Of a stretch of 23,079 nucleotides of DNA, positions 1,810 to 21,059 are shown piece by piece (position 1 is the stretch's first letter; every line of letters starts with the position of its first letter). The position numbers and the translations under genes are program-made. The notes beneath the pieces are model-generated. The model searched no databases. It saw only the letters and a list, made by a program, of their open reading frames with translations, and was not told the DNA's origin. The DNA is taken from NCBI GenBank assembly GCA_015486775.1, contig WFRA01000347.1, positions 1 to 23,079 on the forward strand, written 5' to 3'. Origin of the DNA: Kiritimatiellales bacterium (lineage in GTDB: Bacteria; Verrucomicrobiota; Kiritimatiellia; Kiritimatiellales; Pontiellaceae).

Positions 1810-3167
1810 TAGATTCCTTCCTCTTCGATTTCAAGCAGCCCCTGCTTGACGATGCCGCAGACATCGGTTTTGTGCGGATCGACAAACGCGGCGAGGGCAA
1901 AATCCTCGGGATCGGTTTCGAGGATGCCAAGCTGGATCATTTCGTCGGTGTCGTGCGCGAGGCAGGCGCGGACGAGATAGTCGGTCATGATATTGAGCGG
2001 CTGGTGCTTGTCCATCCATCCAGTCACCACCATGGCGCGGTGGCTGCCGTGCAGATTGGTGCCGAGGTTCCAGAGCTTGGAACGCCCCAGCAGCGAGGAG
2101 AGGTTTACGGGATGGGTCGAGTATTGCAACAACCCCGGCATCGTCCAGCCGAGCAGGTGGCGCGAGCGATCCTCTTCGAGCACGCAATATTCCGAGCCGT
2201 AGAAGCGCAGACCGGAGTCGGCGCCGACCACATCGCCCCAAAGCAGGTTGCCCGCAACAATGCGCAGCTCCTTCCCCTCCTCAAGTGCCTGTTCAAAAAG
2301 TGGCTGAAGATCGGCGCCCAGTGCCACGCGGTAGTGCTTGCGGGCGGATGCCTTCACGCCGGGGCCGCCGAGGGCAACCACCTTCGTGCGCGGCAGCTCG
2401 CCGGTCAGCAGCAGCTTGCCAATCAGGATCACATCCTGTGCGGTAACGGTATAAACCGTGTCGTGCGGCAGGATCGGGCTGATGCGGTTGATGTGTACGC
2501 TGGTGTTGCCCGACGGATGCGAGCCGCTGAAGGTGTGGCTCGTGGCGCTTCCAAACTCCGGAACATCCGAACCCGCCGATTTGCAGAGGTGAACCTTCCC
2601 TTCGGTCAGCTTGGCCAACGCATTGATGCCGGTTTGGAAGGCCTCCTCGTCGCCTTTAAGAATCAGCGAAAAGTTGGCCTGGAAAGGAGCCGAATTGCAG
2701 GCATTGATAAATAGCGCCTTGGGTTCGGCACTAGGATCGGCGATCTTGGAGAAGGGGCGCTGCTTGATCAGCGGCCAGAGGCCAGCATTGAGCAGATGAT
2801 CCACCACCTGCTGACGGGAGAGTTGCCCCACCGAGTCGCGCGTATATTTAGAGAACGTCACGCTCTCCTCCTGGGCGGCGGGTTCGATCACAATCTCGAC
2901 CGGCGCGCGGCGTGCCCCCAGGTTGACTGCCGCAACCGTCCCGCCGCAAGGCGAGCGAAAGAGCATCTTTTCATTCTTCTTGTTCTCGAAAAGCACATCG
3001 CCGCGCTTGACGGTATCGCCGGCGGCGACCTTCAGCCGGGGCTTGATGCCCTCGAATTCCGACGGGTGAACCCTGAATTTTGCGGGACTCCCCATCTCTT
3101 CGATAACGGGTTCGGGGCATCCTTGGACCTTGATGTCAAAGCCCTTTTTTATTTTGAAGTCAGCCAA
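1809..3167 (-). CDS. nqrA: Na+-translocating NADH:quinone reductase subunit A
   Basis: NqrA is the cytoplasmic, membrane-associated subunit of NQR implicated in quinone binding. I place the start at TTG 3165-3167, giving 452 residues beginning (M)-A-D-F-K-I-K-K-G-F-D-I. Family members start right at this K-I-K-K-G block (V. cholerae NqrA is 446 residues), and AGAGGA lies 7 nt upstream as Shine-Dalgarno. The frame is open up to another TTG at 3287, but that extension has no family counterpart and would overlap the upstream gene. Visible family features are the N-terminal barrel-sandwich-like region (P-V-I-E-E-M-G..., G-D-T-V-K-R-G-D-V-L-F), N-A-C-N-S-A-P-F and G-G-P-G-V-K. The C-terminal E-T-D-P-E-D-F-A-L-A-A-F-V-D-P-H-K-T-D-V-C-G stretch is also typical. 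The region 3168-3268 upstream shows no promoter I would defend. Confidence 0.95.
   Translation of the reverse strand: MADFKIKKGFDIKVQGCPEPVIEEMGSPAKFRVHPSEFEGIKPRLKVAAGDTVKRGDVLFENKKNEKMLFRSPCGGTVAAVNLGARRAPVEIVIEPAAQEESVTFSKYTRDSVGQLSRQQVVDHLLNAGLWPLIKQRPFSKIADPSAEPKALFINACNSAPFQANFSLILKGDEEAFQTGINALAKLTEGKVHLCKSAGSDVPEFGSATSHTFSGSHPSGNTSVHINRISPILPHDTVYTVTAQDVILIGKLLLTGELPRTKVVALGGPGVKASARKHYRVALGADLQPLFEQALEEGKELRIVAGNLLWGDVVGADSGLRFYGSEYCVLEEDRSRHLLGWTMPGLLQYSTHPVNLSSLLGRSKLWNLGTNLHGSHRAMVVTGWMDKHQPLNIMTDYLVRACLAHDTDEMIQLGILETDPEDFALAAFVDPHKTDVCGIVKQGLLEIEEEGI
2068..2082. repeat. Dispersed palindrome TTCCA-N5-TGGAA (spacer GAGCT)
   Basis: Perfect copy inside nqrA; in the - strand frame it encodes S-K-L-W-N. 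Confidence 0.9.
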
Positions 3168-3268
3168 GATAGAATCCTCTGTGCGGGTTTGAAAAATGGG
3201 CTCTTGTTTAGCAACTTGGGTTGACGGAGAAAAGCCGTTTTTCAATAAACTATCACCAGGATACCCAT

Positions 3269-4177
3269 TTAGGGCGAAACAGAGCAAAATTGCCCGGCGG
3301 AAAGATATTTTTGGAGAAGCGGCCGGATGGTTCCAGCAAGGAAGTTGTTCCAGGAATCCTGTAGCTCCGGCCAGGCGGAGAGCTGCTCCGCAGAGGCATC
3401 GAGCAGGGCATCGACATAGGCGGAAGGATCCGCCGGGGCGTTGCGGGTGGCGGTGATGGCCGTGGTCTTGCCGCGTTCCTGATCCCGGCCCAGCGTCTTG
3501 CCCGAAAGCTCCTCGTTGCCGGAATCGTCCAGGATGTCATCGACCAGCTGGTAGGCCGTGCCCAGTATGAACCCCGCCTCGCGCAGAGCCTCCACCTGCC
3601 CCGGCGCATCCGAGGCCGCGCCCACAGCGGCAAAGGCAAAAAGCGATCCCGTCTTGGCGCGGGCGATCCGCTCGCACTCCTCCCATGTGCCGGCGGTTCC
3701 GCGAAGCACCAGCTCCTGCTCCACCTCCGACCGGCAGACATTCATCGACTGGTCGATCAGCTCCTTGAGCAAATCGCCGCGCCCCGCGTCGGAAAGTAGC
3801 GCGAAGGCTTTGAGCACCAGCAGGTCGCCCAGCAAGATAGCACCATTGGTTCCATGTTTTTTCCAAAACGTCTGGGCACCGCGCCGTAGCAGGCCACCAT
3901 CGATCACATCGTCGTGCAGCAGGCTGGCGCCGTGAATAATCTCCACCGCCGCGGCCGCGTGGATGGGACTCCGCCCCCCCACCCCATTACCGGAAGCGAC
4001 AGAGAGCACCAAATGCGCCCGCAACATTTTTCCACTCCCAATAATATTATTCCGAGCGGGAAGAAACTTAGAAATTTGGGTATCACGCAGGCAATCCACC
4101 ATGATGGATTTCACGGTTTCGAGCTGCGCCTCGATCTCATTTTCATCAATTTGCATCCGCCCATAATGCCGACCCAT
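3269..4177 (-). CDS. Polyprenyl diphosphate synthase (trans-isoprenyl synthase family)
   Basis: This 302-residue all-helical prenyltransferase would condense isopentenyl diphosphate onto an allylic diphosphate. It carries the first aspartate-rich motif L-L-H-D-D-V-I-D (D89-D93), the second one Q-L-V-D-D-I-L-D-D (about 209-218), an arginine-rich segment (R-R-G near 98-100) and G-R-D-Q-E-R-G-K-T-T after the second motif. That loop is slightly divergent from the usual D-L-x-x-G-K. The product chain length cannot be read from sequence. A quinone side-chain synthase is plausible because the gene sits directly upstream of nqrABC, whose enzyme needs a quinone, but geranylgeranyl or undecaprenyl-type precursors are possible. 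Met8 (4156) is an alternative start. Confidence 0.9.
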   Translation of the reverse strand: MGRHYGRMQIDENEIEAQLETVKSIMVDCLRDTQISKFLPARNNIIGSGKMLRAHLVLSVASGNGVGGRSPIHAAAAVEIIHGASLLHDDVIDGGLLRRGAQTFWKKHGTNGAILLGDLLVLKAFALLSDAGRGDLLKELIDQSMNVCRSEVEQELVLRGTAGTWEECERIARAKTGSLFAFAAVGAASDAPGQVEALREAGFILGTAYQLVDDILDDSGNEELSGKTLGRDQERGKTTAITATRNAPADPSAYVDALLDASAEQLSAWPELQDSWNNFLAGTIRPLLQKYLSAGQFCSVSP

Positions 4178-4211
4178 CCAACCATGTCAACATTCCATGC
4201 AGGCAACCCGC

Positions 4212-5288
4212 TCAATTCGGCAGGCGATCGGCCTCCTGCTGGCGGATGGCCTCTTCGTGGATGGACTGCATGAGCTGGAGGACGAAGCCTTCGGAAAGTT
4301 CGAGTTCCGACCCCTTCGCCACGCGATCCTCCACAATCTCCCGCCAGCGGTCGGGCTGGAGGGTGGAGACGTTCTGTTCGGCCTTAAGGCGACCCATCTC
4401 GCGTACGATGTCCATGCGCTTGCCCAGTAGCTCGATTAGCTGGCCATCGAGATCGTCCACGCCCTCGCGCAGACCGCCCATACGGCTGGAAAACGCCGCG
4501 CTGTCGCTGCGCTCGTGCGGCAGCACCAAATTTCCAACCATTGGAAAAAATTGCTCTGGGGTGAGCTGCTGCGCGGCGTCCGAAAGCGCGCTGGGCGGAT
4601 CGGGATGCACCTCGACCATCAGGCCGTCGAAAAGCAAATCCATCGCCTCCTGCGAAACCACCGGAACCAGATCCGCCCGGCCGCTAATGTGGCTCGGGTC
4701 GCAAAGCAGCGGAATGTCCGGAAGGTGGCGCTTGAGCTCGATCGGCATCTTCCAGTTTGGCGCATTGCGGTAGCGCATCTCCGAGGTCGAGCTAAACCCC
4801 CGGTGGATGGCGCCGAGCTTGGTTAGCCCCGCATTGGCCAGCCGCTCGATGGCGCCGACCCAAAGGCCAATGTCCGCGCTCATCGGATTTTTTACAAGGA
4901 CTGGAATATCCACGCCCCGGAGCGCATCGGCGATCGCCTGCACCGAAAAGGGGTTGGTGGAGGTGCGCGCCCCCACCCAGAGGATATCCACGCCGTATTC
5001 CAGGCAGGCCTCCACGTGCGACGGCTCGGCCACTTCCGTACCGATCTTCAGCCCCGTCTCCGCGCGGGCGCGATCCATCCAAGCCAGCCCCTTGAGCCCC
5101 ACGCCCTCGAAACTGCCCGGCCGGGTGCGCGGCTTCCAGATGCCCGCGCGCATAAAGCCCACGCCCCGCCCCACCAGCGCCTCGGCGCACTCCAGCACCT
5201 GCTTCTCGCTCTCCGCACTGCAAGGCCCCGCCGCCAAAAACATGCGTTCGACCGGAAAACCCCACGCCTCGAAAATCGTTTTATCCAT
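4212..5288 (-). CDS. Bifunctional DAHP synthase (class I-beta) / chorismate mutase
   Basis: The N-terminal domain (about 1-250) is a KDPG-type TIM barrel of the I-beta DAHP synthase family. It would make 3-deoxy-D-arabino-heptulosonate 7-phosphate from PEP and erythrose 4-phosphate, the first shikimate-pathway step. Motifs seen are G-P-C-S-A-E-S (21-27), F-M-R-A-G-I-W-K-P-R-T-R-P, G-T-E-V, V-L-V-K-N-P, I-H-R-G-F and C-D-P-S-H-I-S-G. The C-terminal ~90 residues resemble an AroQ chorismate mutase: L-R-E-G-V-D-D-L-D-G-Q-L-I-E-L-L-G-K-R followed by a helical tail. This order is known from Bacteroidetes-type fusions that feed Phe/Tyr synthesis. The start is ATG 5286-5288 because GGAG lies 7 nt upstream; an in-frame start at 5327 lacks a ribosome site and adds non-family residues. 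Confidence 0.93.
   Translation of the reverse strand: MDKTIFEAWGFPVERMFLAAGPCSAESEKQVLECAEALVGRGVGFMRAGIWKPRTRPGSFEGVGLKGLAWMDRARAETGLKIGTEVAEPSHVEACLEYGVDILWVGARTSTNPFSVQAIADALRGVDIPVLVKNPMSADIGLWVGAIERLANAGLTKLGAIHRGFSSTSEMRYRNAPNWKMPIELKRHLPDIPLLCDPSHISGRADLVPVVSQEAMDLLFDGLMVEVHPDPPSALSDAAQQLTPEQFFPMVGNLVLPHERSDSAAFSSRMGGLREGVDDLDGQLIELLGKRMDIVREMGRLKAEQNVSTLQPDRWREIVEDRVAKGSELELSEGFVLQLMQSIHEEAIRQQEADRLPN
4532..4546. repeat. Dispersed palindrome TTCCA-N5-TGGAA (spacer ACCAT)
   Basis: Perfect copy inside the DAHP synthase/chorismate mutase gene, in the linker between the two domains; encodes F-P-M-V-G-N. Confidence 0.9.
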
Positions 5289-5354
5289 GAAACTTCTCCA
5301 ATGTTCCGCGAAGGGTGGCGAATCCATCGCCCTTCGGGAAGCAGAAAAACCGCG

Positions 5355-5882
5355 CTAGCCTTTCTTTGTTTTGTAGAGCATCCAGGCGGCGAGGGTCTTG
5401 GAATCGGCGATCTCCCCGGCGCGGATCATTTCGTCGAGCTCGGTGCCGGAAAGAATGGCCAGCTCGATGCTTTCGTCTTCGTCGAACGAGGTGGCGCCCT
5501 GCTCCGAGACTTCGGCAAAGAAAATGTCGATGCGCTCGGTGCAATATCCAACGCTTGGAAAAATAGAACCAAGCAGCTCCAGAGTTTCGGCAACATAACC
5601 CGTCTCCTCCTTGAGCTCGCGTGCGGCGGAAACCGCCGGTGCCTCACCGGGGTCGCAGTTGCCGGCCACGACTTCGAAGCAGACGCGCTCCATCGCCTTG
5701 CGGAATTGGCGGATGAAGACAAAACGTCCATCGGGCAGGCGCGGAACGATGGCCACGGCCACACCGTGGCGCACAATCTCTCGCACCGACCGCCGCCCAT
5801 CCTCGAGTTCCACCTCCAGCACATCCACATCCAGGATGCGCCCCTGGAAAACCGTTTTGCTTGAAATCGTTTTTTCGTACAT
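5355..5882 (-). CDS. NUDIX hydrolase, ADP-ribose pyrophosphatase-like
   Basis: This 175-residue protein has a complete Nudix box, G-x5-E-x7-R-E-L-x-E-E-x-G-Y (G74-Y96), the Mg2+-binding loop-helix-loop that cleaves nucleoside diphosphate-X bonds. The preceding V-R-H-G-V-A-V-A-I-V-P and F-I-R-Q-F-R-K-A-M-E-R-V segments and the E-V-V-A-G stretch are typical of the ADP-sugar (NudF/ADPRase) branch. A house-cleaning role on ADP-ribose or ADP-sugars is the likely function; the exact substrate is not visible. A good GGAG Shine-Dalgarno precedes ATG 5882. It is divergent from dgt, another nucleotide-sanitation enzyme, across 51 bp. Confidence 0.92.
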   Translation of the reverse strand: MYEKTISSKTVFQGRILDVDVLEVELEDGRRSVREIVRHGVAVAIVPRLPDGRFVFIRQFRKAMERVCFEVVAGNCDPGEAPAVSAARELKEETGYVAETLELLGSIFPSVGYCTERIDIFFAEVSEQGATSFDEDESIELAILSGTELDEMIRAGEIADSKTLAAWMLYKTKKG

Positions 5883-5896
5883 TCGCCCTTCTCCGT

Positions 5897-5933: not shown

Positions 5934-7088
5934 ATGAACCAAGCGAGAAAAGATTGGGAGGCCATCGAGGAAGAACATCTGGCGCCCTACGCCGTTCGCA
6001 GCGCCGAAAGCCTCGGGCGCCGCCACGCGGAGAGCGGCCACCCCCTGCGCAGCTGCTTCGCACGCGACCGCGACCGCATCCTGCACAGCAAGTGCTTCCG
6101 GAGGCTGGAATACAAGACCCAGGTCTTTGTGAACGGCATGGCCGACCACTACCGCACGCGCCTGACCCACACCATGGAGATGGCTGCCGCAGGCCGCACC
6201 CTCGCCCGCATCCTCAAGGTCAACGAGGATCTGACAGAGTGCATCTGCCTGGCGCACGACATTGGCCACACCCCTTTCGGCCATGCGGGCGAACATGCGC
6301 TCAACGCCCTGATGAAGGAGCAGGGCGGGTTCGACCACAACCTGCAAAGCCTGCGGTGCGTCGAGGTGGTCGAGTCGCCCTACCCCGCCTTCCAAGGGCT
6401 GAACCTGAGCTGGGAGGTGCGTGCCGGCCTGCTCAAGCACGAGGCGCATGTGGAGAACGCGCAGCTCGACGGCCACCCCATCGGCCCCTTCCAATCCTTG
6501 GAAGCGCAGGTCTCCGACATCGCCGACGACATGACCTACCACGCCCACGATGTCGACGACGGCCTCGAAGCGGGCATCGTCACCCCCGCCCAGCTCGAAA
6601 CCACCGAATTCTGGCGCATGGCCGCGGCCGCCACAAGGGAGCGCTACGCCAACCTCACCGAAGACCAATTCCTGCGCGCCACCATCCGCAACCTGCTCGA
6701 ACTCCAGATGGTCGATGTGATCGGGCAGTCGTTCCAATCCTTGGAAAGGCACAGGCCGGGCAGCGTCGGCGAGGTGATGGGCGCGCCGGAGCGCACCGTG
6801 GATTTCAGCCCCGGGATGAAGGAGATCCTCGCCGAGTTCACCGCCTTCATGTTTAAGAACATGTACTTCCACCACGGAGTTGCCGACGCCACGCAAAAGT
6901 CGGTGGAAATGATGCGCAAGCTCTTCCTCCACTATGTCGGGCAGCCCGAAACCATGGGGCGCAAGGCGCGGGCGCGGCTGGAGAGCGAAGGCCTCTGGCG
7001 CACCGCCTGCGACTACGTTGCCGGATGCACCGACCGCTATGCCATCGAGGAGTTCAAGCGCTTCGGGCTCGACCGGGATGTGCAGTAG
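5934..7088 (+). CDS. dgt: dGTPase-like deoxyguanosinetriphosphate triphosphohydrolase (HD domain)
   Basis: This 384-residue HD-superfamily protein would cleave dNTPs to the nucleoside plus triphosphate. The N-terminus has R-D-R-D-R-I-L-H-S-K-C-F-R-R-L-E-Y-K-T-Q-V-F, the signature of dGTPase-like proteins. The metal site reads T-H-T (H79), then L-A-H-D-I-G-H-T-P-F-G-H (H108-D109) and a later S-D-I-A-D-D-M-T-Y-H. Two copies of the dispersed palindrome lie inside the gene (6489-6503 and 6732-6746), and both encode F-Q-S-L-E. There is no ribosome-binding site, consistent with the predicted leaderless promoter at 5897-5925. The gene ends with TAG and faces the - strand gene at 7101. Confidence 0.95.
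   Translation: MNQARKDWEAIEEEHLAPYAVRSAESLGRRHAESGHPLRSCFARDRDRILHSKCFRRLEYKTQVFVNGMADHYRTRLTHTMEMAAAGRTLARILKVNEDLTECICLAHDIGHTPFGHAGEHALNALMKEQGGFDHNLQSLRCVEVVESPYPAFQGLNLSWEVRAGLLKHEAHVENAQLDGHPIGPFQSLEAQVSDIADDMTYHAHDVDDGLEAGIVTPAQLETTEFWRMAAAATRERYANLTEDQFLRATIRNLLELQMVDVIGQSFQSLERHRPGSVGEVMGAPERTVDFSPGMKEILAEFTAFMFKNMYFHHGVADATQKSVEMMRKLFLHYVGQPETMGRKARARLESEGLWRTACDYVAGCTDRYAIEEFKRFGLDRDVQ
6489..6503. repeat. Dispersed palindrome TTCCA-N5-TGGAA (spacer ATCCT)
   Basis: Perfect copy in dgt, encoding F-Q-S-L-E. Confidence 0.9.
6732..6746. repeat. Dispersed palindrome TTCCA-N5-TGGAA (spacer ATCCT)
   Basis: Second perfect copy in dgt, identical to that at 6489, again F-Q-S-L-E; the starts are 243 bp apart. 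Confidence 0.9.
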
Positions 7089-7301: not shown

Positions 7302-8356
7302 TATTTTCCTCCTCCAACAAGCTCTTCGACGGCATCCAGGAACTGGAACATTTCCGGGGCGGTACCGATGGTGACGCGCAGGTAGTCCTTCGTCCGCTCG
7401 TCGTCGCCAAAGTAGCGGACAATGATGTTTTTCTTGCGTAGCTCCCCAAACAGGTGCTCGGCAGAGAGTCCTTGCGGCTTAACCCAGAGAAAATTGGTTT
7501 CGGATGGGACAACCTCAAAGCCCAGCTCGCGCAGCTTGTCCGCCACCAGTTTGCGGGTCTCGACGATCGCCTGCACGTTGGCCTTCATCGTGTCCTGATC
7601 GAGGATCGCCACGCGGGCGATCTCCTGCGTGAGATAGTCAACGTTGTAGGAATCCTTTATCTTATACATCGCGCCGACCAGCTCCGCGTCGCCCACGCAG
7701 TAGCCCAGACGGATACCCGCCAGCGAATAGGATTTCGAGAGCGTCCGCGCCACCAGCACGTTGCCGGAGGCCAGCGCCAAATCCATGCAATTTTCCTTCG
7801 CGAAATCGGCATAGGCTTCGTCGATCAGCACCACGCCGCCAAAGCCCTCCACGAACGACTCCACGTTGGCGCGGGAATATTGCAGACTGGTTGGCGCGTT
7901 CGGATTCGTCAGAAAAAAGAGCGAAGCCGCATAGTCCGCCGGCATCTGCCAGCCAAAATCGGCATCCAGGGCAACCGGCCGCTTCTCGACATCCTCGATA
8001 TCGGCGAGGATCGGATAGAGCGAGTAGGAGGGATCGAAAAAGCCCACCGAACCGTCGCGTTCGACAAAGGCGCGGATGCACAGCGCCAGCACCTCGTCCG
8101 ACCCATTGCCCACAAAGATGTTTTCCATCTCGCAGCCATGCAACTGCGCGATCGCCTTGCGCAGCTCCGTGCAGACCGGGTCGGGATAGCGCGCCAACGC
8201 CGCAATATCCACCATCGACAAAATATCCTGTACATCCGCCGACGGCAGATAGGGATTCTCGTTTGTGTTCAGCTTAACGACATCCTCGCCACGGGGCTGC
8301 TCCCCCGGAACATACCCCGCCATCGCCTGCACCGACTTTCTGATTAAACCATTCAT
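7301..8356 (-). CDS. hisC: Histidinol-phosphate aminotransferase
   Basis: HisC is a PLP-dependent class II aminotransferase that forms L-histidinol phosphate from imidazole acetol phosphate and glutamate. The 351-residue protein has K-L-N-T-N-E-N-P-Y near the N-terminus, G-N-G-S-D-E (83-88), F-L-T-N-P-N-A-P-T (the Asn that contacts PLP), L-I-D-E-A-Y-A-D-F (178-185) and T-L-S-K-S-Y-S-L-A-G-I-R-L-G. Lys208 in the last motif is the Schiff-base lysine. Only hisD, about 1.8 kb upstream on the same strand, is another his gene here, and toxin-antitoxin and unknown genes separate them. The his genes are therefore not in a compact operon. It could act on other aromatic amino acids. Confidence 0.94.
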   Translation of the reverse strand: MNGLIRKSVQAMAGYVPGEQPRGEDVVKLNTNENPYLPSADVQDILSMVDIAALARYPDPVCTELRKAIAQLHGCEMENIFVGNGSDEVLALCIRAFVERDGSVGFFDPSYSLYPILADIEDVEKRPVALDADFGWQMPADYAASLFFLTNPNAPTSLQYSRANVESFVEGFGGVVLIDEAYADFAKENCMDLALASGNVLVARTLSKSYSLAGIRLGYCVGDAELVGAMYKIKDSYNVDYLTQEIARVAILDQDTMKANVQAIVETRKLVADKLRELGFEVVPSETNFLWVKPQGLSAEHLFGELRKKNIIVRYFGDDERTKDYLRVTIGTAPEMFQFLDAVEELVGGGK

Positions 8357-8370: not shown

Positions 8371-8784
8371 TCAAACCAACGGATTCACGGCAACCACGCC
8401 GCCATAATCCTGCCCCGTATTTAAATCTTCCGTCCAAAGCTCCTTTGCACCCGACATCTGCGCGGCGGCAACAATATTCGCATCATAAAATGAGGTTCCA
8501 TACTGCCGATGAATCTCCATAGAGCATCTCATCAACTCACATGTGTTTTCCACAACTTTCCAACGCATGTAATATTCCACCACCTCTCGATAAAAGGCTG
8601 GGTCACCCCCCTTCCGAATCATCGTCACGTAAAATTCCTGAAGAACCTGAACACTCAGCGCAATGGAACACTGGTTTTCCAGCAGATCTTCCAAACAGCA
8701 CTTGGCCAATCGATGCTTTTCTGGATCTATGCTATCGCAGGAATAGACCAGAATGTTTGTGTCGATAAAGACCTCAGCGTTCAT
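8371..8784 (-). CDS. PIN-domain ribonuclease toxin (VapC-like)
   Basis: This 137-residue PIN protein has the acidic sites of VapC-type RNases: F-I-D-T-N-I-L-V-Y at the N-terminus (Asp8), a mid-protein acidic residue in L-Q-E-F-Y, and S-F-Y-D-A-N-I-V-A-A-A with L-W-T-E-D-L-N near the C-terminus. VapC toxins cleave structured RNAs such as tRNA or rRNA; the target here is unknown. I choose ATG 8782-8784, where the PIN fold begins, rather than upstream in-frame starts at 8793 or 8817. It overlaps the antitoxin gene by 11 bp, as usual for toxin-antitoxin pairs. Confidence 0.9.
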   Translation of the reverse strand: MNAEVFIDTNILVYSCDSIDPEKHRLAKCCLEDLLENQCSIALSVQVLQEFYVTMIRKGGDPAFYREVVEYYMRWKVVENTCELMRCSMEIHRQYGTSFYDANIVAAAQMSGAKELWTEDLNTGQDYGGVVAVNPLV

Positions 8785-9004
8785 GCAGCTCATCCCGCGT
8801 AAAGGTTTTTCCTGCATAGGCAGGCGCTTCCTCCATCACCTTCAAAATAAAGGCCTTGTCCTCATCATACCGAAGATCCTTACGCGCCTCTTTTTCCACC
8901 GCTTGGGTAATCCAAGCAGAAACCGACATATCTTGCTCGATCGCGATGTGTTTCACATTCTTGAGCAACTGCTCATCCATTCGAATGGTAATATTTTTTG
9001 TCAT
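8774..9004 (-). CDS. Ribbon-helix-helix antitoxin (VapB/CopG-like)
   Basis: This is a 76-residue protein with an N-terminal ribbon-helix-helix pattern: T-I-R-M-D-E-Q-L-L-K-N-V-K-H-I-A-I-E-Q-D-M-S-V-S-A-W-I. This fold binds operator DNA as a dimer. The C-terminal half (about 46-76) is charged, as expected for the toxin-neutralising segment. It precedes the PIN toxin with an 11-bp overlap. AGGAGG lies just upstream of ATG 9004, and an inverted repeat at 9031-9049 is a candidate autoregulatory operator. Confidence 0.88.
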   Translation of the reverse strand: MTKNITIRMDEQLLKNVKHIAIEQDMSVSAWITQAVEKEARKDLRYDEDKAFILKVMEEAPAYAGKTFTRDELHER

Positions 9005-10122: not shown

Positions 10123-11423
10123 TCAAACCGGATGGTGGCCGACCGCGCGTGGCCGTCGAGGGTTTCGACGCGGCCGAAGGCTTCGACCACCGGAAGGGTC
10201 TCTTCCAGATCCGCTTTGGTGAATTGAATGAGGCTGGTGCGGCGGCGGAAATCCTCGACCGTCAGGCCGGAAAAGTAGGCGGCGGTTCCACCCGTTGGAA
10301 GAACGTGGCTCGGGCCGGCCGCAAAGTCGCCGACGGATTCGGGGGTCCATTCGCCAATAAACAGCGCCCCGGCGTTGAACACTTTGTCGACCCATTTTTC
10401 GGGATTCTTGACAATCAGCTCCATGTGCTCCGGCGCAAAGAGGTTGCAGAGGTCGATCCCGTCTTTCATGGTTTTCACCACTACCAGCAGCATTCCTTTT
10501 TCCAATACCTGGAAGACCGGCTCGGAACGCGACAGCAATTCGGCCTGCTTGAGTACCTCGGATCGGATGGCCTCGGCCTGCTTTTGCGAGGTGGTGACCA
10601 GTAGCGATTTTTCCGATCCGGTGCCATGCTCGGCCTGTGAGAGCAGGTCGGCGGCGACGTGCGCCGGGTTGGCAGAGGTGTCGCACAGCACGGCGATCTC
10701 GCTGGGACCCGCAACCATGTCGAGCGCCACGTCGCCATAGACTTGGCGCTTGGCGGCCGTCACATACGGCCCGCCGGGGCCGACGATTTTCCGAACCTTG
10801 GAAATGGTCTTGGTGCCATAGGCCATCGCACCGATCGCCTGGACGCCGCCCACCTTGTAGATTTCGGTGGCGCCGGCCAGATCCAGTGCATAGAGGATAT
10901 ATGGATTCAGCTTGCCCTCGGCGTTCGCCGGGGAGCAGGCCACCAGTTCCTTCACACCGGCCACCTTCGCCAGCGTCAGCGTCATGAGTGCGGTCGAGGC
11001 CAGCGGTGCCGCACCGCCGGGAATATAGGCACCCACGCGATCGAACGGAATGAACCGTTCGCCCAGCATGCCGCCCTGGGGCGTCGCCATCTTCCAATCG
11101 TCTCGCAATCCGTTTTTTGAAAAGGCGGCAATGCGCTTGTGTGCCTCCTGTGCGGCTTTCTTGAAGTCGTCGTCAACCAACCGCTTTGCCTCCGTAATTT
11201 CCTCGGGCTTGACCCGCAACCGGCGCAGGGAAATATTTGCCCCGTCGAACCGCCGCGCATAATCGATCAGCGCCTTGTCGCCAAACTCTCGGATATCCGC
11301 CAGCACGCGAGTCGCCACCTTCATGGCCTCTTCTTCCACGGAAGGCCGCAGTAAAAAATTCTCCGCCTTCTTGTATTTCCGATCCGTACCCCACTTGGTG
11401 ATGGGCGCCAATTTCCTGCTCAT
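10119..11423 (-). CDS. hisD: Histidinol dehydrogenase
   Basis: HisD oxidises L-histidinol to L-histidine with two NAD+, the last step of histidine synthesis, using Zn2+. From ATG 11421-11423 the product is 434 residues, exactly the E. coli HisD length, with a GAAGGAG ribosome site 6 nt upstream. An in-frame TTG at 11444 adds seven residues lacking support. Active-site motifs are S-Q-A-E-H-G-T-G (about Q263/H266) and F-A-P-E-H-M-E-L (E332/H333), which match the catalytic Glu-His pair and zinc ligands of the family. G-A-Y-I-P-G-G and G-P-S-E-I-A are also present. Two perfect palindrome copies lie inside (10286-10300, 10500-10514). mnmE ends 81 bp upstream. Confidence 0.96.
   Translation of the reverse strand: MSRKLAPITKWGTDRKYKKAENFLLRPSVEEEAMKVATRVLADIREFGDKALIDYARRFDGANISLRRLRVKPEEITEAKRLVDDDFKKAAQEAHKRIAAFSKNGLRDDWKMATPQGGMLGERFIPFDRVGAYIPGGAAPLASTALMTLTLAKVAGVKELVACSPANAEGKLNPYILYALDLAGATEIYKVGGVQAIGAMAYGTKTISKVRKIVGPGGPYVTAAKRQVYGDVALDMVAGPSEIAVLCDTSANPAHVAADLLSQAEHGTGSEKSLLVTTSQKQAEAIRSEVLKQAELLSRSEPVFQVLEKGMLLVVVKTMKDGIDLCNLFAPEHMELIVKNPEKWVDKVFNAGALFIGEWTPESVGDFAAGPSHVLPTGGTAAYFSGLTVEDFRRRTSLIQFTKADLEETLPVVEAFGRVETLDGHARSATIRFE
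10286..10300. repeat. Dispersed palindrome TTCCA-N5-TGGAA (spacer CCCGT)
   Basis: Perfect copy in hisD, in the conserved L-P-T-G-G-T segment; it is the only copy with a pyrimidine as first spacer base. Confidence 0.85.
10500..10514. repeat. Dispersed palindrome TTCCA-N5-TGGAA (spacer ATACC)
   Basis: Second perfect copy in hisD, encoding F-Q-V-L-E-K; 214 bp from the first. Confidence 0.9.
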
Positions 11424-11504
11424 TTCAAACTCCTTCGGTTCCAACGCCCGGAAAACTACTCCGCAAACGTTCAGGTTTCAAATTTCAAGTTCCAGATTTA
11501 GACA

Positions 11505-12872
11505 TCATTTCCCGATGCAGAAGCGCGAAAAAACGTTGTCGAGCAGCTCTTCGTGGTAGACGCGACCGGTTACCTGCCCGAGATATTCGAGCGCGGAGCG
11601 AAGGTGCTCGGCGGCAAATACGGCATTTTCCTCAATGTTTTTGTTCAGGAACGCCCTGGCCTGCCGTGCCTCTTCGTGCGCAAGCAGCAGCAGGTGCCGA
11701 TGCCGCTCGGAGATGACCGCATGCGCCGGAGCATGCAGGTTCGCCCCCTTTTCGAGCTTTTCGCCGAGCACCTTTTTCAATTCCTCCACGCCCTCGCCGG
11801 AAACCAAACTTGTCTCGACCCCGCCGACCTCTGGAACCCGATTTCCCAAATCCACTTTGTTGAGCACCACCACGCTTTTGGCGGGATCGAGTTTTTCCAG
11901 CCGCACCCGATCCTCTTCGTGCAGGGGCTGCGAGGCATCGATCAGGTAGAGCGAAAGGTGCGCCTCTTCGCCATGGGCTTCGGCGCGGCGGACGCCCTCG
12001 GCTTCGATCTCGCAATCGGTTTGGCGCAGCCCGGCGGTATCGATGATCCGCAGCGGAATGCCATCGAGCACAAAGCCCTCCTCGATGCTGTCGCGCGTGG
12101 TGCCGGCGGTGCCCGAAACGATCGCCCGATCGAAACCCAGCAGCGTATTGAGCAGGGTCGACTTCCCCGCATTGGGACGCCCCAGAATCGCCACCCGCGC
12201 ACCCTCGCGCAACAGGCGACCTTCGTCCCAGGTGTCGAGCAGATTATCCAAGGTCTGGAAGGTTTCGTCGAGCAAGTTGGTGATACCGGAAAAGACCTCG
12301 TCGGGCAATTCGTCCTCCACAAAATCGAGCGTGGTTTCGAGATTAGCGGCCACATCGAGAAAAGCATCGTAGATGCCGTTGAACCGCTGGCTGAGCCGCC
12401 CCTCCATCTGTTCGAGCGCGGCGGAGGCGGCGCGGTCGGAACGGGCGCGAACCAGATCGAATATGCCTTCGGCCTGCACGAGGTCGATCCGGCCATTCAA
12501 GAATGCGCGCTTGGTAAATTCGCCCGGCTCGGCCATGCGCGCTCCCGCTTCGAGCGCCCGGCGCAGGATGCGGCGCATACCGACCGCCCCGCCATGCCCT
12601 TGGATCTCAACCACATCCTCGCGGGTGTAGCTTTTGGGGGCGCGCATTACCAGCGCAAGGCCGGTGTCGATTTCGGAACCTTCGACATCGATGATTTTGC
12701 CATAGGCAAACGTACCGTGCGCCCGCTCGGAAACCGGCGTTTTATCCAGCGGTTGGAAAAGCGCGTCGGCAATCTTCCAAACCTTGGAACCCGAAATGCG
12801 CACAATCCCCACCCCGCCCTCGCCGGGGGGCGTGGCAATCGCCGCGATGGTATCTGGGTCGTAGAGAAACAT
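11505..12872 (-). CDS. mnmE: tRNA modification GTPase MnmE (TrmE)
   Basis: MnmE works with MnmG to make 5-carboxymethylaminomethyl-type modifications at U34 of tRNAs. The 455-residue protein shows the full three-part layout: an N-terminal folate-binding domain ([21 protein letters not shown], 8-28), a helical domain and an inserted G domain. The G domain has G1 G-R-P-N-A-G-K-S (231-238), the G-T-A-G-T-T-R-D switch, G3 D-T-A-G (278-281) and G4 N-K-V-D. The C-terminal F-C-I-G-K includes the catalytic Cys. No Shine-Dalgarno precedes ATG 12872; a GAAA-loop hairpin lies 9 nt upstream instead (12882-12901). The gene carries palindrome copy 12775-12789 and degenerate ones nearby. Confidence 0.97.
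12775..12789. repeat. Dispersed palindrome TTCCA-N5-TGGAA (spacer AACCT)
   Basis: Perfect copy near the 5' end of mnmE (S-K-V-W-K); a one-mismatch copy lies at 12744-12758. Confidence 0.9.
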
Positions 12873-12881: not shown

Positions 12882-12901
12882 AATAGCTATTTCTAGCTAT
12901 T
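12882..12901 (-). promoter_or_regulatory. 8-bp hairpin with GAAA loop just upstream of mnmE
   Basis: On the - strand AATAGCTA-GAAA-TAGCTATT forms a perfect 8-bp stem closed by a GNRA-type loop, ending 9 nt before the mnmE ATG in the 47-bp gap after pgpA. No U-run follows, so it is not a standard terminator. It could influence mnmE translation or protect a processed end. Confidence 0.45.
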
Positions 12902-12919
12902 GGAAAAGCAGAATCCGGC

Positions 12920-13531: not shown

Positions 13532-15688
13532 CTACAGATATTCCTTGATCCGCTCGGAGAGCGTGGTGGTGCGCTCGCGCGATTCGGCGCGGGTGACGGC
13601 GAGATTGAGCGCTTTTTTGGTGCCGAGCACGATCACGAGCTTCCTGGCGCGGGTGATGGCGGTGTAGATCAGGCTGCGCTGCAAGAGCACATAGTGCTGG
13701 GTGTGCAACGGAATGACGACGCAGGGATATTCGCTCCCCTGGCTTTTGTGGATGGTGATGGCGTAGGAGAGGACCAGTTCGTCAAGCTCGCGAAAATCGT
13801 AGACGACCTTGCGGCCCTCGAAATCGACCACAAGTTCGTTGGCCTCGGAATCGATCTTGGCAATCCGGCCCATGTCGCCGTTGAAGACCTCCTTGTCGTA
13901 GTCGTTCTCGGTCTGCATCACCTTGTCGCCGGTACGGAAGACATAGCCAAAGCGCTCCACCTCGTCACCGCGCGGGTTCAAGAGTTGCTGCAAAGTTTGG
14001 TTGAGGTTGCGCGCGCCCAGCTCGCCCTTCTGCATAGGGGTAAGAATCTGGATCTCCTCCAGCGGATTGAAGCGAAACTTTTTGGGGATCGACTGCTTGA
14101 CCAGCCTGCCCACCAGATCCACCGCCTTGGCGGGATCGTTGGACTCGACGAAGTAGCAGTCGCTCGTTTTTCCAGCCTCTGGAAACTCCGGCATCTGCCC
14201 CCGATTGATCCGGTGGGCGTTGGTGATGATCCGGCTGGTGGCCGCTTGGCGGAAAACCTCGTCGAGATGGGCGACGGGAATCTTCTTTGAATGGATGATA
14301 TCCTGCAACACGCGACCGGGGCCGACAGAGGGGAGCTGGTCGGCATCGCCCACAACAATAAATGCGGCATGCAGCGGGATGGCGTCGGCCAGCTGGGAGG
14401 CCAGCATGACATCGATCATGCTCGACTCATCGACAATGAGCACGTCGCACTCCAGCGGGTTTTCGGCGCAGTGGACGAAGCCGCCGGTTCCGGGGTTGTA
14501 CTGGAGCAGGCGGTGGATGGTCTTGGCCTCCATGCCGGTGGTTTCGGCCATGCGCTTGGCGGCACGGCCGGTCGGGGCGCAGAGCACGACGCGCAGCTTC
14601 TTGGCCTTGAGCACCATCAGCACCGAGTTGACCAGCGTGGTTTTTCCGACCCCTGGGCCGCCCGTAATGATCATCACCTTGGATTCGACGGCGGTTTTCA
14701 ACGCCTTGCGCTGGGCGGGCGCAAGTTCGATGCCGCTTTTTTGCTGCACCCAGGCGAGCGCCTTGGAAACATCGATCGGCGGGCAGGGATGCCTGCCGTG
14801 TTCCAAGGCCTGGAGCCTTTTGGCGAGGTCAATCTCGGCAAAGTAAAGCTTGGGCAGATAGATCAAATCGTCGCCCGCAAAATTGGCGCGCTGGATCAGC
14901 CGGTCATTTTCGAGCGAATGGTCCAGCGCACGCTCGACAATCGCCAAGTCGATCTGGAGCAGCTCGGCGGAGCGCGAAAGCAGGTCGTTGCGGACATAGG
15001 CGCAGTGGCCGTTGGCGGTCAGCTCGCCGAGCACAAACTCCAGCCCGGCGCGGGCGCGCAGATCGGAATCCTTGGCGATGCCCAAGCGCATGGCGATTTG
15101 GTCGGCAATCAGGAAGCCGATGCCGCGAATGTCGCGCGCGAGGCAGTAGGGATCGCGCTGGACCATCTCGATGGCCTTGTCGCCATAGGCCTTGTGGATG
15201 CGAAAGGCGCGGGTGGTACTTACGCCGTGGCTAAACAGGAAGGCCATGATTTGCCGGACACTCTTTTGCACGTCCCACGCCTTCTTGATGTTGTCCTTGC
15301 GCTGACGGCCAATCCCCTCCACCTTCCGCAGCTTGCCCGAAGAGTTTTCGATCACGTCAAACACATCGCGGCCGAAGGTTTTCACCAGCCGCTTGGCATA
15401 CTCCTTCCCAATGCCCTTGATCAGCCCGGAGGCCAGATATTTTTCGATCCCCTCGAGCGTGTCGGGCTTCGACATGCGCATCTGCTCCGCCTTGAACTGC
15501 GGGCCGTGGCGCGGATCGGTGAACCACTCGCCGTCGGCCGTCATCCACTCGCCGGAATTGATGGTCGGTACCGTCCCGGTAACGGTCACCAGCTCCTTGT
15601 GCCCGCGCACCTTCACGCGCAACACGCAGAAGCCATTCTCCTCGTTGCGGAAAACAATCCGCTCGATCTGTCCGTCCAGCTTTTCCAT
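13532..15688 (-). CDS. recD2: RecD2-type 5'-3' DNA helicase
   Basis: This 718-residue SF1B helicase is the AddAB/RecBC-independent RecD found in many bacteria, close in size to D. radiodurans RecD2 (about 715). An N-terminal OB/pin-like region and helix-hairpin-helix segments (K-G-I-G-K-E-Y-A-K-R; V-E-G-I-G-R-Q-R) precede the motor. The motor has Walker A I-T-G-G-P-G-V-G-K-T-T (341-351), Walker B V-L-I-V-D-E-S-S-M-I-D (416-426), G-D-x-x-Q-L-P-S-V-G-P-G (motif III) and, near the C-terminus, Y-A-I-T-I-H-K-S-Q-G-S-E-Y and Y-T-A-I-T-R-A-R (motifs V and VI). Its ATG overlaps the upstream zinc-ribbon gene stop by one base (TAATG). Likely role: processing of stalled forks or DNA breaks. Confidence 0.96.
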   Translation of the reverse strand: MEKLDGQIERIVFRNEENGFCVLRVKVRGHKELVTVTGTVPTINSGEWMTADGEWFTDPRHGPQFKAEQMRMSKPDTLEGIEKYLASGLIKGIGKEYAKRLVKTFGRDVFDVIENSSGKLRKVEGIGRQRKDNIKKAWDVQKSVRQIMAFLFSHGVSTTRAFRIHKAYGDKAIEMVQRDPYCLARDIRGIGFLIADQIAMRLGIAKDSDLRARAGLEFVLGELTANGHCAYVRNDLLSRSAELLQIDLAIVERALDHSLENDRLIQRANFAGDDLIYLPKLYFAEIDLAKRLQALEHGRHPCPPIDVSKALAWVQQKSGIELAPAQRKALKTAVESKVMIITGGPGVGKTTLVNSVLMVLKAKKLRVVLCAPTGRAAKRMAETTGMEAKTIHRLLQYNPGTGGFVHCAENPLECDVLIVDESSMIDVMLASQLADAIPLHAAFIVVGDADQLPSVGPGRVLQDIIHSKKIPVAHLDEVFRQAATSRIITNAHRINRGQMPEFPEAGKTSDCYFVESNDPAKAVDLVGRLVKQSIPKKFRFNPLEEIQILTPMQKGELGARNLNQTLQQLLNPRGDEVERFGYVFRTGDKVMQTENDYDKEVFNGDMGRIAKIDSEANELVVDFEGRKVVYDFRELDELVLSYAITIHKSQGSEYPCVVIPLHTQHYVLLQRSLIYTAITRARKLVIVLGTKKALNLAVTRAESRERTTTLSERIKEYL
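14170..14184. repeat. Dispersed palindrome TTCCA-N5-TGGAA (spacer GCCTC)
   Basis: Perfect copy in recD2, encoding F-P-E-A-G-K. Confidence 0.9.
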
Positions 15689-15939
15689 TAAAACTTTTTC
15701 TCGTATTCGCCATCGCCGAGTTTTTCCAGCTTCTGGAAGCCAGCGCGCTTGGCGCGGTCATCGAAGGTACTTTTTGAGCCACCGACGTTAGTCGAGGCGA
15801 GCTGGCGCTCCACCGGATTGCAGCATTCGGGGCAGATGGGGAACGGGGGACAGTCCACCGGTTCGACCCGCTCGAAGCCCGCCTTACAATGGGGGCAGGC
15901 TTTGTTGGGGTCGGCGGCGATATATTCGCGAATGGGCAT
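15688..15939 (-). CDS. FmdB-like zinc-ribbon protein
   Basis: This is an 83-residue protein with C-P-H-C and C-P-E-C pairs about 20 residues apart, the putative regulatory zinc-ribbon layout of FmdB-like small proteins, followed by a polar C-terminal tail. The function of the family is not known. ATG 15937-15939 is preceded by AAGGAAGAA; the family starts M-P-I-R-E-Y as here, so an upstream ATG at 15975 is unlikely. The stop overlaps the recD2 start (TAATG), so the two are likely co-translated. Palindrome copy 15724-15738 lies near its 3' end and encodes F-Q-K-L-E. Confidence 0.85.
   Translation of the reverse strand: MPIREYIAADPNKACPHCKAGFERVEPVDCPPFPICPECCNPVERQLASTNVGGSKSTFDDRAKRAGFQKLEKLGDGEYEKKF
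15724..15738. repeat. Dispersed palindrome TTCCA-N5-TGGAA (spacer GCTTC)
   Basis: Perfect copy in the zinc-ribbon gene, encoding F-Q-K-L-E. Confidence 0.9.
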
Positions 15940-15978
15940 GGTTTCTTCCTTCAATGATTGGAAATGTTCTACCATCCC

Positions 15979-15993
15979 TTCCAGGGTTTGGAA
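15979..15993. repeat. Dispersed palindrome TTCCA-N5-TGGAA (spacer GGGTT)
   Basis: Perfect intergenic copy 40 bp upstream of the zinc-ribbon ATG. Confidence 0.9.
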
Positions 15994-16164: not shown

Positions 16165-17404
16165 AGGGAAGCAGGGTCGATCCGGTCAGCTCCAGCAGGA
16201 AGGCGATGGAGATGGGGGCGTTGGTCCAGCCGGAGTAGATGCTGCCCTGCCCGCCCTCGAAGCGGTTGCCGCCGCCCCACGCCCCGGCCTCGCAGTCGTA
16301 CATTCCGCGCCAGCATCCCTTGAAGGGGGGTTCTTCCCTGTCCTGGATGTGGGCAAGCAGTCCGGCCGACCTCTCGAACGCCTCCCGGTATTCCATTTTT
16401 CCGGGCAGCAATTTCGACAGGTGTAGCAATCCAAGGGTCGCCCAGTTCTGGGTGTAGATCAGATCAACAAAATGGTCTCCCTCCGGTGCCTCGAAATGGT
16501 TGGAGGTGAAATGGCCATCGGCCTTCTGGTTTTCCAGCAGAATCTGCCCGGCCTTTTCGGCAACTTCCATGATCCGGGCATCGCCGTAAACCGTGGCAAC
16601 AAGCGGGGCGATGAAAGAGAGGTAGGCCTGTTCGGAAATCGACCAACCATTTTTGCACTGGGAATCCCTGTCCCATGCCTGCGGCCCGTCGAGCACGGTT
16701 CGGTAGTATTTGTCGACAATGCCATAGCGGCTCCGGGTTCCCTGGACGCGGTCGGCAAGGGCGAACGCCAGCGTCGCCAGCCCAATCCAGTGGGGATTGA
16801 GCTGGGTTCCATCCAGAATCGTTGCTTCGGGTTTTGCATCCCGCCCCTTCTTTTCGATAAAATCAAAATAGGCCTGCATGTGCCGGTGCAAGGCATCGGC
16901 GGTGGCCAGCCCCGGCCCGACCAGCCGCTCGTGCCCCCGCCTGCCGAGAATCAGGAGGCAAATGGCCACCCACGCGTTGTCGTCTACCCAAACCTTGTCT
17001 CCAGCCGGAAAACGCTGCATAGCCCACCGCCACAAGTTCCAAACCTTGGAAGCCGGGTCGGACTCCCGCATGCCGCTACGGTCGACCAAGAATCCAACGA
17101 GATTTTCCGCAATCTCACGGTAGCGTTCCTCGCCAAAATATTCCTCGGCGAGGTCGAACATCAGCGCGGTCTCGACAGCGCAGTCGGCGCGGCGGTGCTC
17201 CAGCGCCACGGTGCCGGCATTGAGCGGGGTCTGGTAAGGAAAGAACTCATCGATTTTTTCCTTCGCCTCATTGGAGCCGATATCCGCGATGCGCTCGGCA
17301 ACGCCCCAGAACCCGTCGTTCGGGCGCATGATTCCAGAATGGAGAAACCATTCGATATTCCTTCCGACAGCGCTTTCCAGTTGATCCTTCATTGTTTTTT
17401 CCAT
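16163..17404 (-). CDS. (alpha/alpha)6-barrel glycosidase/epimerase-like protein
   Basis: This protein of about 413 residues lacks a signal peptide and has repeated helical hairpins with aromatic and Gly-rich turns: V-W-V-D-D-N-A-W-V-A-I-C-L-L-I-L-G-R (mid-protein), L-N-P-H-W-I-G-L-A-T-L-A-F-A-L-A and Q-N-W-A-T-L-G-L-L-H-L-S-K-L-L. Near the C-terminus comes G-C-W-R-G-M-Y-D-C-E-A-G-A-W-G-G-G-N. This is the pattern of six-hairpin glycoside hydrolases and N-acylglucosamine epimerase-like proteins; I cannot assign a family number or substrate. The Asp-Asp and Trp/His-rich motifs are the candidate active site. ATG 17404 is chosen; an in-frame TTG at 17449 and ATG 17392 are alternatives. The gene has 420 bp upstream with no other gene. 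Palindrome copy 17037-17051 lies inside (S-K-V-W-N). Confidence 0.7.
   Translation of the reverse strand: MEKTMKDQLESAVGRNIEWFLHSGIMRPNDGFWGVAERIADIGSNEAKEKIDEFFPYQTPLNAGTVALEHRRADCAVETALMFDLAEEYFGEERYREIAENLVGFLVDRSGMRESDPASKVWNLWRWAMQRFPAGDKVWVDDNAWVAICLLILGRRGHERLVGPGLATADALHRHMQAYFDFIEKKGRDAKPEATILDGTQLNPHWIGLATLAFALADRVQGTRSRYGIVDKYYRTVLDGPQAWDRDSQCKNGWSISEQAYLSFIAPLVATVYGDARIMEVAEKAGQILLENQKADGHFTSNHFEAPEGDHFVDLIYTQNWATLGLLHLSKLLPGKMEYREAFERSAGLLAHIQDREEPPFKGCWRGMYDCEAGAWGGGNRFEGGQGSIYSGWTNAPISIAFLLELTGSTLLP
17037..17051. repeat. Dispersed palindrome TTCCA-N5-TGGAA (spacer AACCT)
   Basis: Perfect copy in the glycosidase-like gene, same 15-mer as the mnmE copy; encodes S-K-V-W-N. Confidence 0.9.
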
Positions 17405-17669
17405 TCCCGTGGCTTCTCCAAATCCCGGTCGGTTCCCCGGCTCCTCCAAAAAAATCCGCTTTGTCCCGAATTGCCCGAACGTTCAAAGTACAGACTTGGT
17501 ACCGGCTTCTATTCCACCCTTCGGAAAACAATCCACCAAATACCCAAACCAAAAAATGATGAAATAATAGACGGACACCTTTTTTACTTTTTCACGAACA
17601 CCTTTTCGCAATGCAAACATGAAGGCCAATATCCGGAGATCTCCTATCATCCCAAAAGATGCAGTAGAG

Positions 17670-18447: not shown

Positions 18448-18519
18448 GTGTCCAAGGTATTTCCTCATGCTGCATTGGCCAACATTAAAAAGAGTTTTTG
18501 TGTTCCTTGCGCCTTTTCG

Positions 18520-19700: not shown

Positions 19701-19760
19701 CGAAGAGGTGTTGCAGTCTTTGTTGCAAGGGGCTACAAGAAGTTTAACCAAGGAGTGGAT

Positions 19761-20204
19761 ATGCAGGCACCGGAATGGGATCGGAAGGATCGAGCGGGGT
19801 CGCTGGAAAAGTGGATCGAGATGCTCAATGCGGAGGCGCGGCGGCAGTTTCTCGAGGCCGGAACGCATGTCGAAATCTTTTTCCTCTTCAACGACGAGGG
19901 GATTATGGAGGTGGTTCCAATCGTTGGAATGGAGAAGGACGAGATCGTGGACGAGCTTAAAAAAATGCTTTCCGAGCGCGATGGCTATGCCTTTATCCAC
20001 ATTTCCGAGGGAACCATGCGGCACATGGACACGGCCGACAAGGCCGATATGCTTTTTGTGCATGCCGAGAGCCGCGAGGGGGTGTCGATGGCTTGGTGTA
20101 GCACCGTTGCAATGCGCGGAGAGGAAAAGCTTTTGCTTGATCCCGTTCGGATCGATGGCGACAAGCTCGCAGGCCGTTTCGCCCATATCTTCGAGGATCT
20201 GTAG
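19761..20204 (+). CDS. Hypothetical protein
   Basis: I do not recognise this 147-residue soluble protein. It starts M-Q-A-P-E-W-D at ATG 19761 after GGAG 5 nt upstream (the in-frame GTG at 19755 lies inside that site). It has a mixed alpha/beta look with beta-like segments (H-V-E-I-F-F-L-F-N-D-E-G, Y-A-F-I-H-I-S-E-G-T) and ends F-A-H-I-F-E-D-L. No catalytic signature, signal peptide or membrane segment is seen. Palindrome copy 19915-19929 lies inside it, encoding V-P-I-V-G-M, so it belongs to the older genome background rather than the adjacent accessory genes. Confidence 0.75.
   Translation: MQAPEWDRKDRAGSLEKWIEMLNAEARRQFLEAGTHVEIFFLFNDEGIMEVVPIVGMEKDEIVDELKKMLSERDGYAFIHISEGTMRHMDTADKADMLFVHAESREGVSMAWCSTVAMRGEEKLLLDPVRIDGDKLAGRFAHIFEDL
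19915..19929. repeat. Dispersed palindrome TTCCA-N5-TGGAA (spacer ATCGT)
   Basis: Perfect copy in the hypothetical gene at 19761, encoding V-P-I-V-G-M. Confidence 0.9.
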
Positions 20205-20276
20205 TCTCTTCCGGCTTGGTTTGCGGGCGGGGTTTGGGCAGGATGGGCGCTTCTGGAAATAAAAGGGGAATGGAAG

Positions 20277-20999: not shown

Positions 21000-21014
21000 G
21001 GCGTAGCGAGTGTT

Positions 21015-21037
21015 GCGTATTACGTATTGCGTATTGC
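21015..21037. repeat. Tandem heptamer RCGTATT, three units
   Basis: GCGTATT, ACGTATT and GCGTATT follow each other directly, then GC. It lies in the 132-bp gap between the DUF975 gene and tgt, 8 bp upstream of palindrome copy 21045-21059. Confidence 0.7.
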
Positions 21038-21044
21038 ATGAATC

Positions 21045-21059
21045 TTCCAAGGTCTGGAA
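21045..21059. repeat. Dispersed palindrome TTCCA-N5-TGGAA (spacer AGGTC)
   Basis: Perfect intergenic copy upstream of tgt, between two heptamer tandem arrays. Confidence 0.9.

Follow-up and report, generated by a model that had tools for sequence, protein, structure and literature searches.

A 15-bp interrupted palindrome, TTCCA-N5-TGGAA, is massively over-represented in the DNA studied here, the 23,079-nt stretch at positions 1 to 23,079 of contig WFRA01000347.1 (assembly GCA_015486775.1, a Kiritimatiellales bacterium), hereafter the window. With a probability of roughly one half, slightly on the favourable side, we propose that it is the binding site of a predicted sequence-specific dimeric protein of the architectural or nucleoid type, which would organise DNA in the class of Pontiella. 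The palindrome is abundant genome-wide, its half-sites vary independently of each other, its coding copies trace to substitutions and are conserved at synonymous positions, relatives carry it in helically phased arrays and in lineage-specific recoded versions, and between tandem genes it lies toward the end of the upstream gene. From these features we infer binding by a protein, its dimeric state and a structural role rather than a regulon.

According to the proposed mechanism, each subunit would read one half-site (T)TTCCAR, with the two half-sites one helical turn apart and C or G preferred at the centre of the site. In several families, dimers would line up along one face of the helix, mostly in intergenic arrays with intervals of two or three turns (in family f2, represented by G027 and G028, as many as five; f1 denotes the window's own family). 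In the Kiritimatiellales, most strongly in the window's genus, the sites may have spread from intergenic arrays into genes, single sites being scattered there by point substitution through selection or a biased process.

Abundance and distribution of the palindrome

The window holds 13 perfect sites, all at the coordinates given by an earlier model-made annotation (the sequence-only reading), where base composition predicts about 0.013, in agreement with its estimate of 0.01-0.02. When up to one mismatch is allowed, the number rises to 30 (13 perfect and 17 one-mismatch sites), whereas 100 dinucleotide shuffles gave 0.90 on average and never more than 4. Thirteen of the 17 one-mismatch copies had been reported; those at 880, 4892, 6096 and 8558 had been missed, and the one placed at 17513 belongs at 17512. 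Spacers of 0 to 14 bp other than 5 bp gave no match in the window. The spacer of the perfect sites begins with a purine in 12 of 13 cases and ends with a pyrimidine in all 13, as had been noticed, and 11 of the 13 have C or G at its centre, which had been overlooked. Flanks of the window sites differ from one another. Eleven sites are coding and two intergenic according to our own simple gene finder, on which all such calls rest.

In the assembly from which the window comes (2,516,066 bases in 439 contigs, 72% complete), 676 sites were counted, compared with two for the reversed control AAGGT-N5-ACCTT. The excess is thus genome-wide and not confined to the window, and the earlier description of the motif as resembling HIP1, the highly iterated palindrome of cyanobacteria, in abundance is a fair one. 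All 40 genomes inspected, the window's own and 39 relatives, contained the motif, in 5 to 2,297 copies (1,091 in G033). In a phylum-wide sample of 387 genomes, a large excess was present only in the window's class, which is the class holding Pontiella, and there in some families and not in others; the remaining classes had 0 to 30 copies. Four sites were found in 76 fetched loci (1.36 Mb) that represent other phyla but include some loci of the same phylum. Four genomes of the window's genus group with sizes of 1.1-1.3 Mb (G010, G015, G019 and G022, drafts 63-87% complete) hold only 5 to 7 sites each, which resembles the loss of HIP1 in symbiotic cyanobacteria. A literature search found no description of the palindrome, the Kiritimatiella genome paper (doi 10.1038/ismej.2016.84) being outside its reach.

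A separate observation concerns G096, from another class of the phylum, in which the reversed control AAGGT-N5-ACCTT occurs 55 times and the motif itself 0 times. This could be a further palindrome built in a similar way; none of its copies lay in a 20-kb sample of G096.

The sites of the window are as follows (strand given as "." throughout; genes called by our own finder are marked as predicted):

293..307, one-mismatch site
880..894, one-mismatch site, absent from the earlier list
2068..2082, perfect site TTCCAGAGCTTGGAA, within nqrA
2549..2563, one-mismatch site
4532..4546, perfect site, within a DAHP synthase/chorismate mutase gene
4892..4906, one-mismatch site, absent from the earlier list
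5546..5560, one-mismatch site
6096..6110, one-mismatch site, absent from the earlier list
6489..6503, perfect site, within an HD phosphohydrolase gene (5934-7088 +)
6732..6746, perfect site, within the same HD phosphohydrolase gene (5934-7088 +)
7334..7348, one-mismatch site
8558..8572, one-mismatch site, absent from the earlier list
10286..10300, perfect site, within hisD; substitutions and zero gaps in 17 aligned relatives
10500..10514, perfect site, within hisD; gap in 1 of 19 aligned relatives
10789..10803, one-mismatch site, in hisD
11439..11453, one-mismatch site, at the predicted 5' end of hisD; gapped in many aligned sequences
12246..12260, one-mismatch site, in mnmE; one-base gap in 2 of 19 aligned relatives
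12744..12758, one-mismatch site, within mnmE, 31 bp from the perfect site at 12775
12775..12789, perfect site, within mnmE; perfect also in the relative G008 (L138)
12891..12905, one-mismatch site
14170..14184, perfect site, within recD2; small gaps in 3 of 10 aligned relatives
14801..14815, one-mismatch site, in recD2
15724..15738, perfect site, in a short predicted gene (15688-15954) adjoining the recD2 start
15979..15993, perfect site, intergenic as predicted
17037..17051, perfect site, in a predicted gene without a Pfam match
17512..17526, one-mismatch site, listed earlier as 17513
19915..19929, perfect site, in a predicted gene (19755-20204 +); opposite frame without a Pfam match
21045..21059, perfect site, intergenic as predicted, upstream of tgt
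21136..21150, one-mismatch site, at the tgt start
22584..22598, one-mismatch site

Among the other genes of the window, positions 8371-8817 encode a PIN-domain protein, possibly the toxin of a toxin-antitoxin pair.

Consensus and independence of the half-sites

Four sets of sites were used to derive the consensus: 207 coding and 73 intergenic sites from five genomes of the window's genus, 40 sites from G027, and 57 intergenic sites from six genomes of other families. They give the full consensus (T)TTCCA-R-N-S-N-Y-TGGAA(A), whose central base is C or G in 90, 94, 98 and 100% of the sites of the four sets. Among the 207 coding sites of f1, the spacer ends form the combinations A..T (86), A..C (43), G..T (41) and G..C (23), and independence would give, by our own arithmetic, about 85 A..T, about 85 for A..C and G..T together, and about 21 G..C. 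Since A and G vary independently on the two sides, the pattern fits a dimer that reads two half-sites and not a hairpin. The earlier claim that the spacer ends pair is therefore not supported, A..C and G..T being as frequent as independence predicts. An RNA hairpin was likewise rejected as a candidate, in view of the missing covariation across the spacer, which the stem of a hairpin or terminator would show, the independence of the half-sites and the near-equal G..T and A..C counts on the sense strand (41 vs 43 in f1).

Once one TTCCA half is present, its partner half is enriched 71-fold in f1, 67-fold in f2 and 114-fold elsewhere. Single changes in the partner half are only 0- to 11-fold enriched, with the f1 maxima at the outer T and at the change from A to G.

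Origin and conservation of the coding sites

For the window sites in hisD, mnmE and recD2, orthologues within the genus are mostly gap-free and differ by substitutions. Over 241 site alignments, gap rates were 3.3 and 4.1%, versus 2.7 and 2.6% in 1,205 controls (compared without a significance test), and the motif stood at the same place in 50 of the 241 aligned partners. Judging from these alignments, coding copies arise by substitution, not by insertion. At codons with an unchanged amino acid, third positions within half-sites were identical in 151 of 180 cases, while matched codons in other parts of these alignments gave an expectation of 74.4 (0.84 vs 0.41), and on this basis the coding sites are kept at the DNA level, by selection or by biased repair. 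Together with the independent half-sites and the phased arrays of relatives described below, substitution origin and synonymous conservation support the earlier statement that the sites are not recent copies of one element.

The number of coding sites is also far above that in codon-shuffled genes (60 shuffles), namely 207 vs 24.1 (maximum 36) in f1 and 139 vs 16.2 (maximum 26) in f2. The codon-shuffle null is itself far above the base expectation, and the peptide FQTLEK occurs 13 times in f2, so that protein sequence seems to have been shaped as well. Site density is about equal in conserved and other genes (0.300 vs 0.286 per kb in f1, 0.193 vs 0.171 in f2). The same palindrome is written in the same codons in proteins near L272:12187 (G028) and L166:17846 (G071), that is, in two families; both look to us like the redox repressor Rex, an assignment that we assume.

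Placement differs among families. In G001, G008, G016 and G071 together, 196 sites are coding, 71 intergenic and 7 lie at edges, and G028 shows 117, 48 and 2, respectively, in 40 samples spread across the chromosome. Sites of other families are mostly intergenic, the sample being unbiased for G122 only (4 coding, 17 intergenic and 2 edge sites). The neighbours of arrays are housekeeping genes of many kinds, as judged by eye. In gaps between tandem genes, 47 of 67 clusters are nearer to the upstream stop than to the next start (p 0.0013); these pooled figures, as well as those for convergent gaps given below, include array-biased samples.

Helically phased arrays and recoded sites in relatives

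In order to assess phasing, adjacent spacings of 17 to 60 bp were compared with a 10.4-bp period and 10,000 random sets. In families other than f1 and f2, the spacings were 22 (7), 30 (4), 31 (20) and 32 (6) bp, giving R 0.90 for 37 pairs, a value reached by 0 of 10,000 random sets. In f2, they were 22, 30-32, 41-42 and 52-53 bp (22 pairs, R 0.89, again 0 of 10,000), and coding pairs of this family are likewise phased (17 pairs, 0 of 1,000 random sets). Stretches of G071, G001, G016, G008, G027, G122 and G028 were sampled regardless of sites, and those of G192, G399, G410, G050 and G100, as well as four of the eight from G004, were picked from listings that showed sites. A relaxed array pattern detected pairs in 108 of the 193 genomes of the class, other members of family f6 included, and zero pairs in G003, G018, G045 and G058. 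A de novo search for phased arrays found none in small samples of 20 kb each from G018, G003, G096 and G077 and 2.3 kb more of G003.

Some genomes that looked poor in the motif carry altered versions of it in the same geometry. Array sites are mostly TTCCAC..GTGGAA in G262 and mostly TTCCAT..ATGGAA in G295, and in G014 TTCCA is followed by a pyrimidine. The metagenome-assembled genome of L024 has mostly TTCCAC at a spacing of 22 and 31 bp, and G053, the sole f6 member whose sites were inspected, has TTCCGA-NSN-TCGGAA.

The array pattern was also found in 18 IMG/VR stretches. One of them, the phage L288 (IMGVR_UViG_3300042271_000466), encodes a terminase, a portal protein, a head protease and a major head protein, and has a six-site phased array at 2786-2946 (spacings 31, 31, 22, 31 and 31 bp) about 0.6 kb upstream of the terminase gene. 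Two proteins of L297 gave no match.

Some further observations concern individual arrays. The highest number in the class search, 1,371 relaxed array pairs, belongs to G428 (family f8), where nearly all of the listed ones are TTCCAATSATTGGAA, spaced by 31-33 bp. For the reversed control of the relaxed pattern (AAGG..CCTT pairs), G295 gave 10 and G442 gave 6 occurrences, compared with 0 to 3 in the other listed genomes. G192 has near-identical two-site arrays at L106:8976-9021 and 10488-10533, about 1.5 kb apart, and perhaps arrays can also be duplicated locally.

Search for a binding protein and points against the proposal

Several observations weigh against a dimeric organising protein as the reader of these sites, beginning with the two protein families that were tried for the role. 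AsnC/Lrp proteins were considered because of the two- and three-turn spacing of the arrays, and were rejected: 164 of the 193 class genomes have one to three matches, whether rich or poor in sites, and an alignment of 25 proteins showed no conservation of the recognition helix between genomes with the same motif. The site-bearing G006 has no AsnC match, but this genome is 88% complete. A ParB-family paralogue fared no better, with a match in 38 of 39 genomes, mostly in one copy and again in rich and poor genomes alike, and none found in G033, the genome with 1,091 sites. Phasing is absent from the window's own family (23 adjacent pairs, R 0.13, equalled or exceeded by 7,062 of 10,000 null sets), despite which the window does hold one 31-bp pair, at 12744 and 12775. 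Two genomes of the window's genus, G003 and G018, have 20 sites each and no arrays. On the coding strand of f1, the central base is C in 116 sites and G in 82, a slight imbalance not expected of a palindrome that acts purely at the DNA level. The excess in convergent gaps is weak at the level of clusters (0.76 vs 0.45 per kb; convergent versus divergent p 0.059), and the trend from origin to terminus in G028 is not significant (rho -0.23, p 0.16). Finally, 117 proteins shared across families (50-260 aa) were read by eye with no obvious binder among them, in samples that cover part of each genome.

Alternative explanations

According to one alternative, a DNA methyltransferase or repair system reads an inner part of the palindrome and skews mutation or repair, and sites build up with no structural protein bound to them, as in a HIP1-like drive. 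This would account for the abundance, the dispersal through coding DNA by substitution, the alternative palindromes elsewhere and the concentration of f1 near-matches at the outer base, features that are similar to those of HIP1 in the account of Elhai 2015 (PMC4390886). We nevertheless regard it as unlikely, since helical phasing of arrays would be unexpected and the R.S.Y constraint on the spacer sets the palindrome apart from ordinary interrupted enzyme sites, whose spacers are not known to be constrained in this way. Two methyltransferase families were rejected as candidates: among 31 genomes, PF01555 has no match in 10 (including G004, G027, G033, G192, G083, G091 and G216) and PF02384 has none in three (including G083 and G216), and the genomes named all bear sites or arrays, G216 by the relaxed array pattern. 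For these two families, the methylation suggested by the sequence-only reading loses its support; its broader idea of a protein-binding or organising site is favoured by the half-sites, the conservation and the arrays, as a genome-wide site recognised by a protein.

Quite unlikely, in our judgement, are operators of one large regulon under a transcription factor, or sites of transcription termination or insulation. The mostly intergenic position in other families (for which the unbiased sample is G122) and the closeness of 47 of 67 tandem-gap clusters to the upstream stop are what such sites would show, but no common pathway was apparent by eye among the neighbouring genes, sites occur between convergent genes too, and those of the window's family are mostly inside genes (207 coding, 73 intergenic).

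We hold as a shade less probable again a drive of the kind known for DNA uptake signals, in which a competence system prefers DNA with the motif and transformation multiplies the sites, as is the case for the uptake sequences of Neisseria and Haemophilus. Copies in the hundreds to thousands, the coding origin by substitution, the large differences among species of one genus and the shaping of more than codon choice (FQTLEK in f2) would suit it. However, uptake would not explain why arrays keep in step with the helical turn and are concentrated between genes, and uptake sequences are not known to be palindromic. For the spread of sites into genes, the HIP1-like and the uptake-like drives are both live rivals.

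A mobile or repetitive element similar to repetitive extragenic palindromes (REP) or miniature inverted-repeat transposable elements (MITE), or an RNA hairpin, is highly improbable: although the sites are palindromic and repeated, form intergenic arrays (two of them near-identical and 1.5 kb apart in G192) and are slightly biased to C at the centre on the f1 coding strand (116 vs 82), gap rates at coding sites are near those of controls (3.3/4.1% vs 2.7/2.6%), flanks differ, the spacer does not covary, and G..T is not preferred to A..C on the f1 sense strand (41 vs 43).

Comparison with known systems

The proposed binding site shares traits with several known systems. Like HIP1 and the alternative HIPs of cyanobacteria (Elhai 2015, PMC4390886), it is in genome-wide excess that includes coding DNA, is replaced by other versions in other lineages and has its near-matches at outer positions. 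Unlike HIP1, it is a 15-bp interrupted palindrome with a constrained 5-bp spacer, a central C or G and phased intergenic arrays, and neither of the two methyltransferase families tracks it. It is therefore best set beside the HIPs and not among them, sharing their abundance and replacement and lacking their contiguity.

Lrp/AsnC proteins, according to a review (PMC2995911), place dimers on one helical face with a centre spacing of two or three turns and wrap DNA. The 22 and 31 bp spacings of f2 and the other families, not of the window's family, match those two and three turns, whereas neither the presence of AsnC nor its recognition helix follows the palindrome.

DNA uptake sequences and uptake signal sequences (DUS/USS) are also genome-wide, present in coding DNA and of species-specific abundance, unlike the present sites in that the latter are palindromic and phased. 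REP sequences and bacterial interspersed mosaic elements (BIME) similarly form arrays of intergenic palindromes toward the 3' ends of genes; the present sites, in contrast, also arise in genes by substitution, and no conserved body was seen around them. The matS, parS and KorB operators are likewise short palindromes, bound by dimers with a role in organising or regulating replicons, and the KorB operator shares the central C or G. They differ in having far fewer sites per genome, and ParB copy number does not track the sites described here.

Biological meaning

What leads certain bacteria to fill their genomes with a single palindrome is a long-standing question, raised mainly by HIP1. The palindrome of the Pontiella class offers an independent example from a different phylum, and it has traits that are not known for HIP1, namely phased arrays, which suggest a protein, families in which sites are either mostly intergenic or genome-wide, and natural changes of the half-site. 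As a tentative extension, for which we would claim distinctly less than for the binding site itself, the class could possess a chromatin-like system, based on a DNA-organising protein and on thousands of palindromic sites in phased arrays, in which the recognition sequence and the sites changed together across families and one order wrote the site into its coding sequence, altering both proteins and codons. These changes of the half-site would show which protein coevolves with it, and since cultured Pontiella strains exist, pull-downs and methylomes are feasible.

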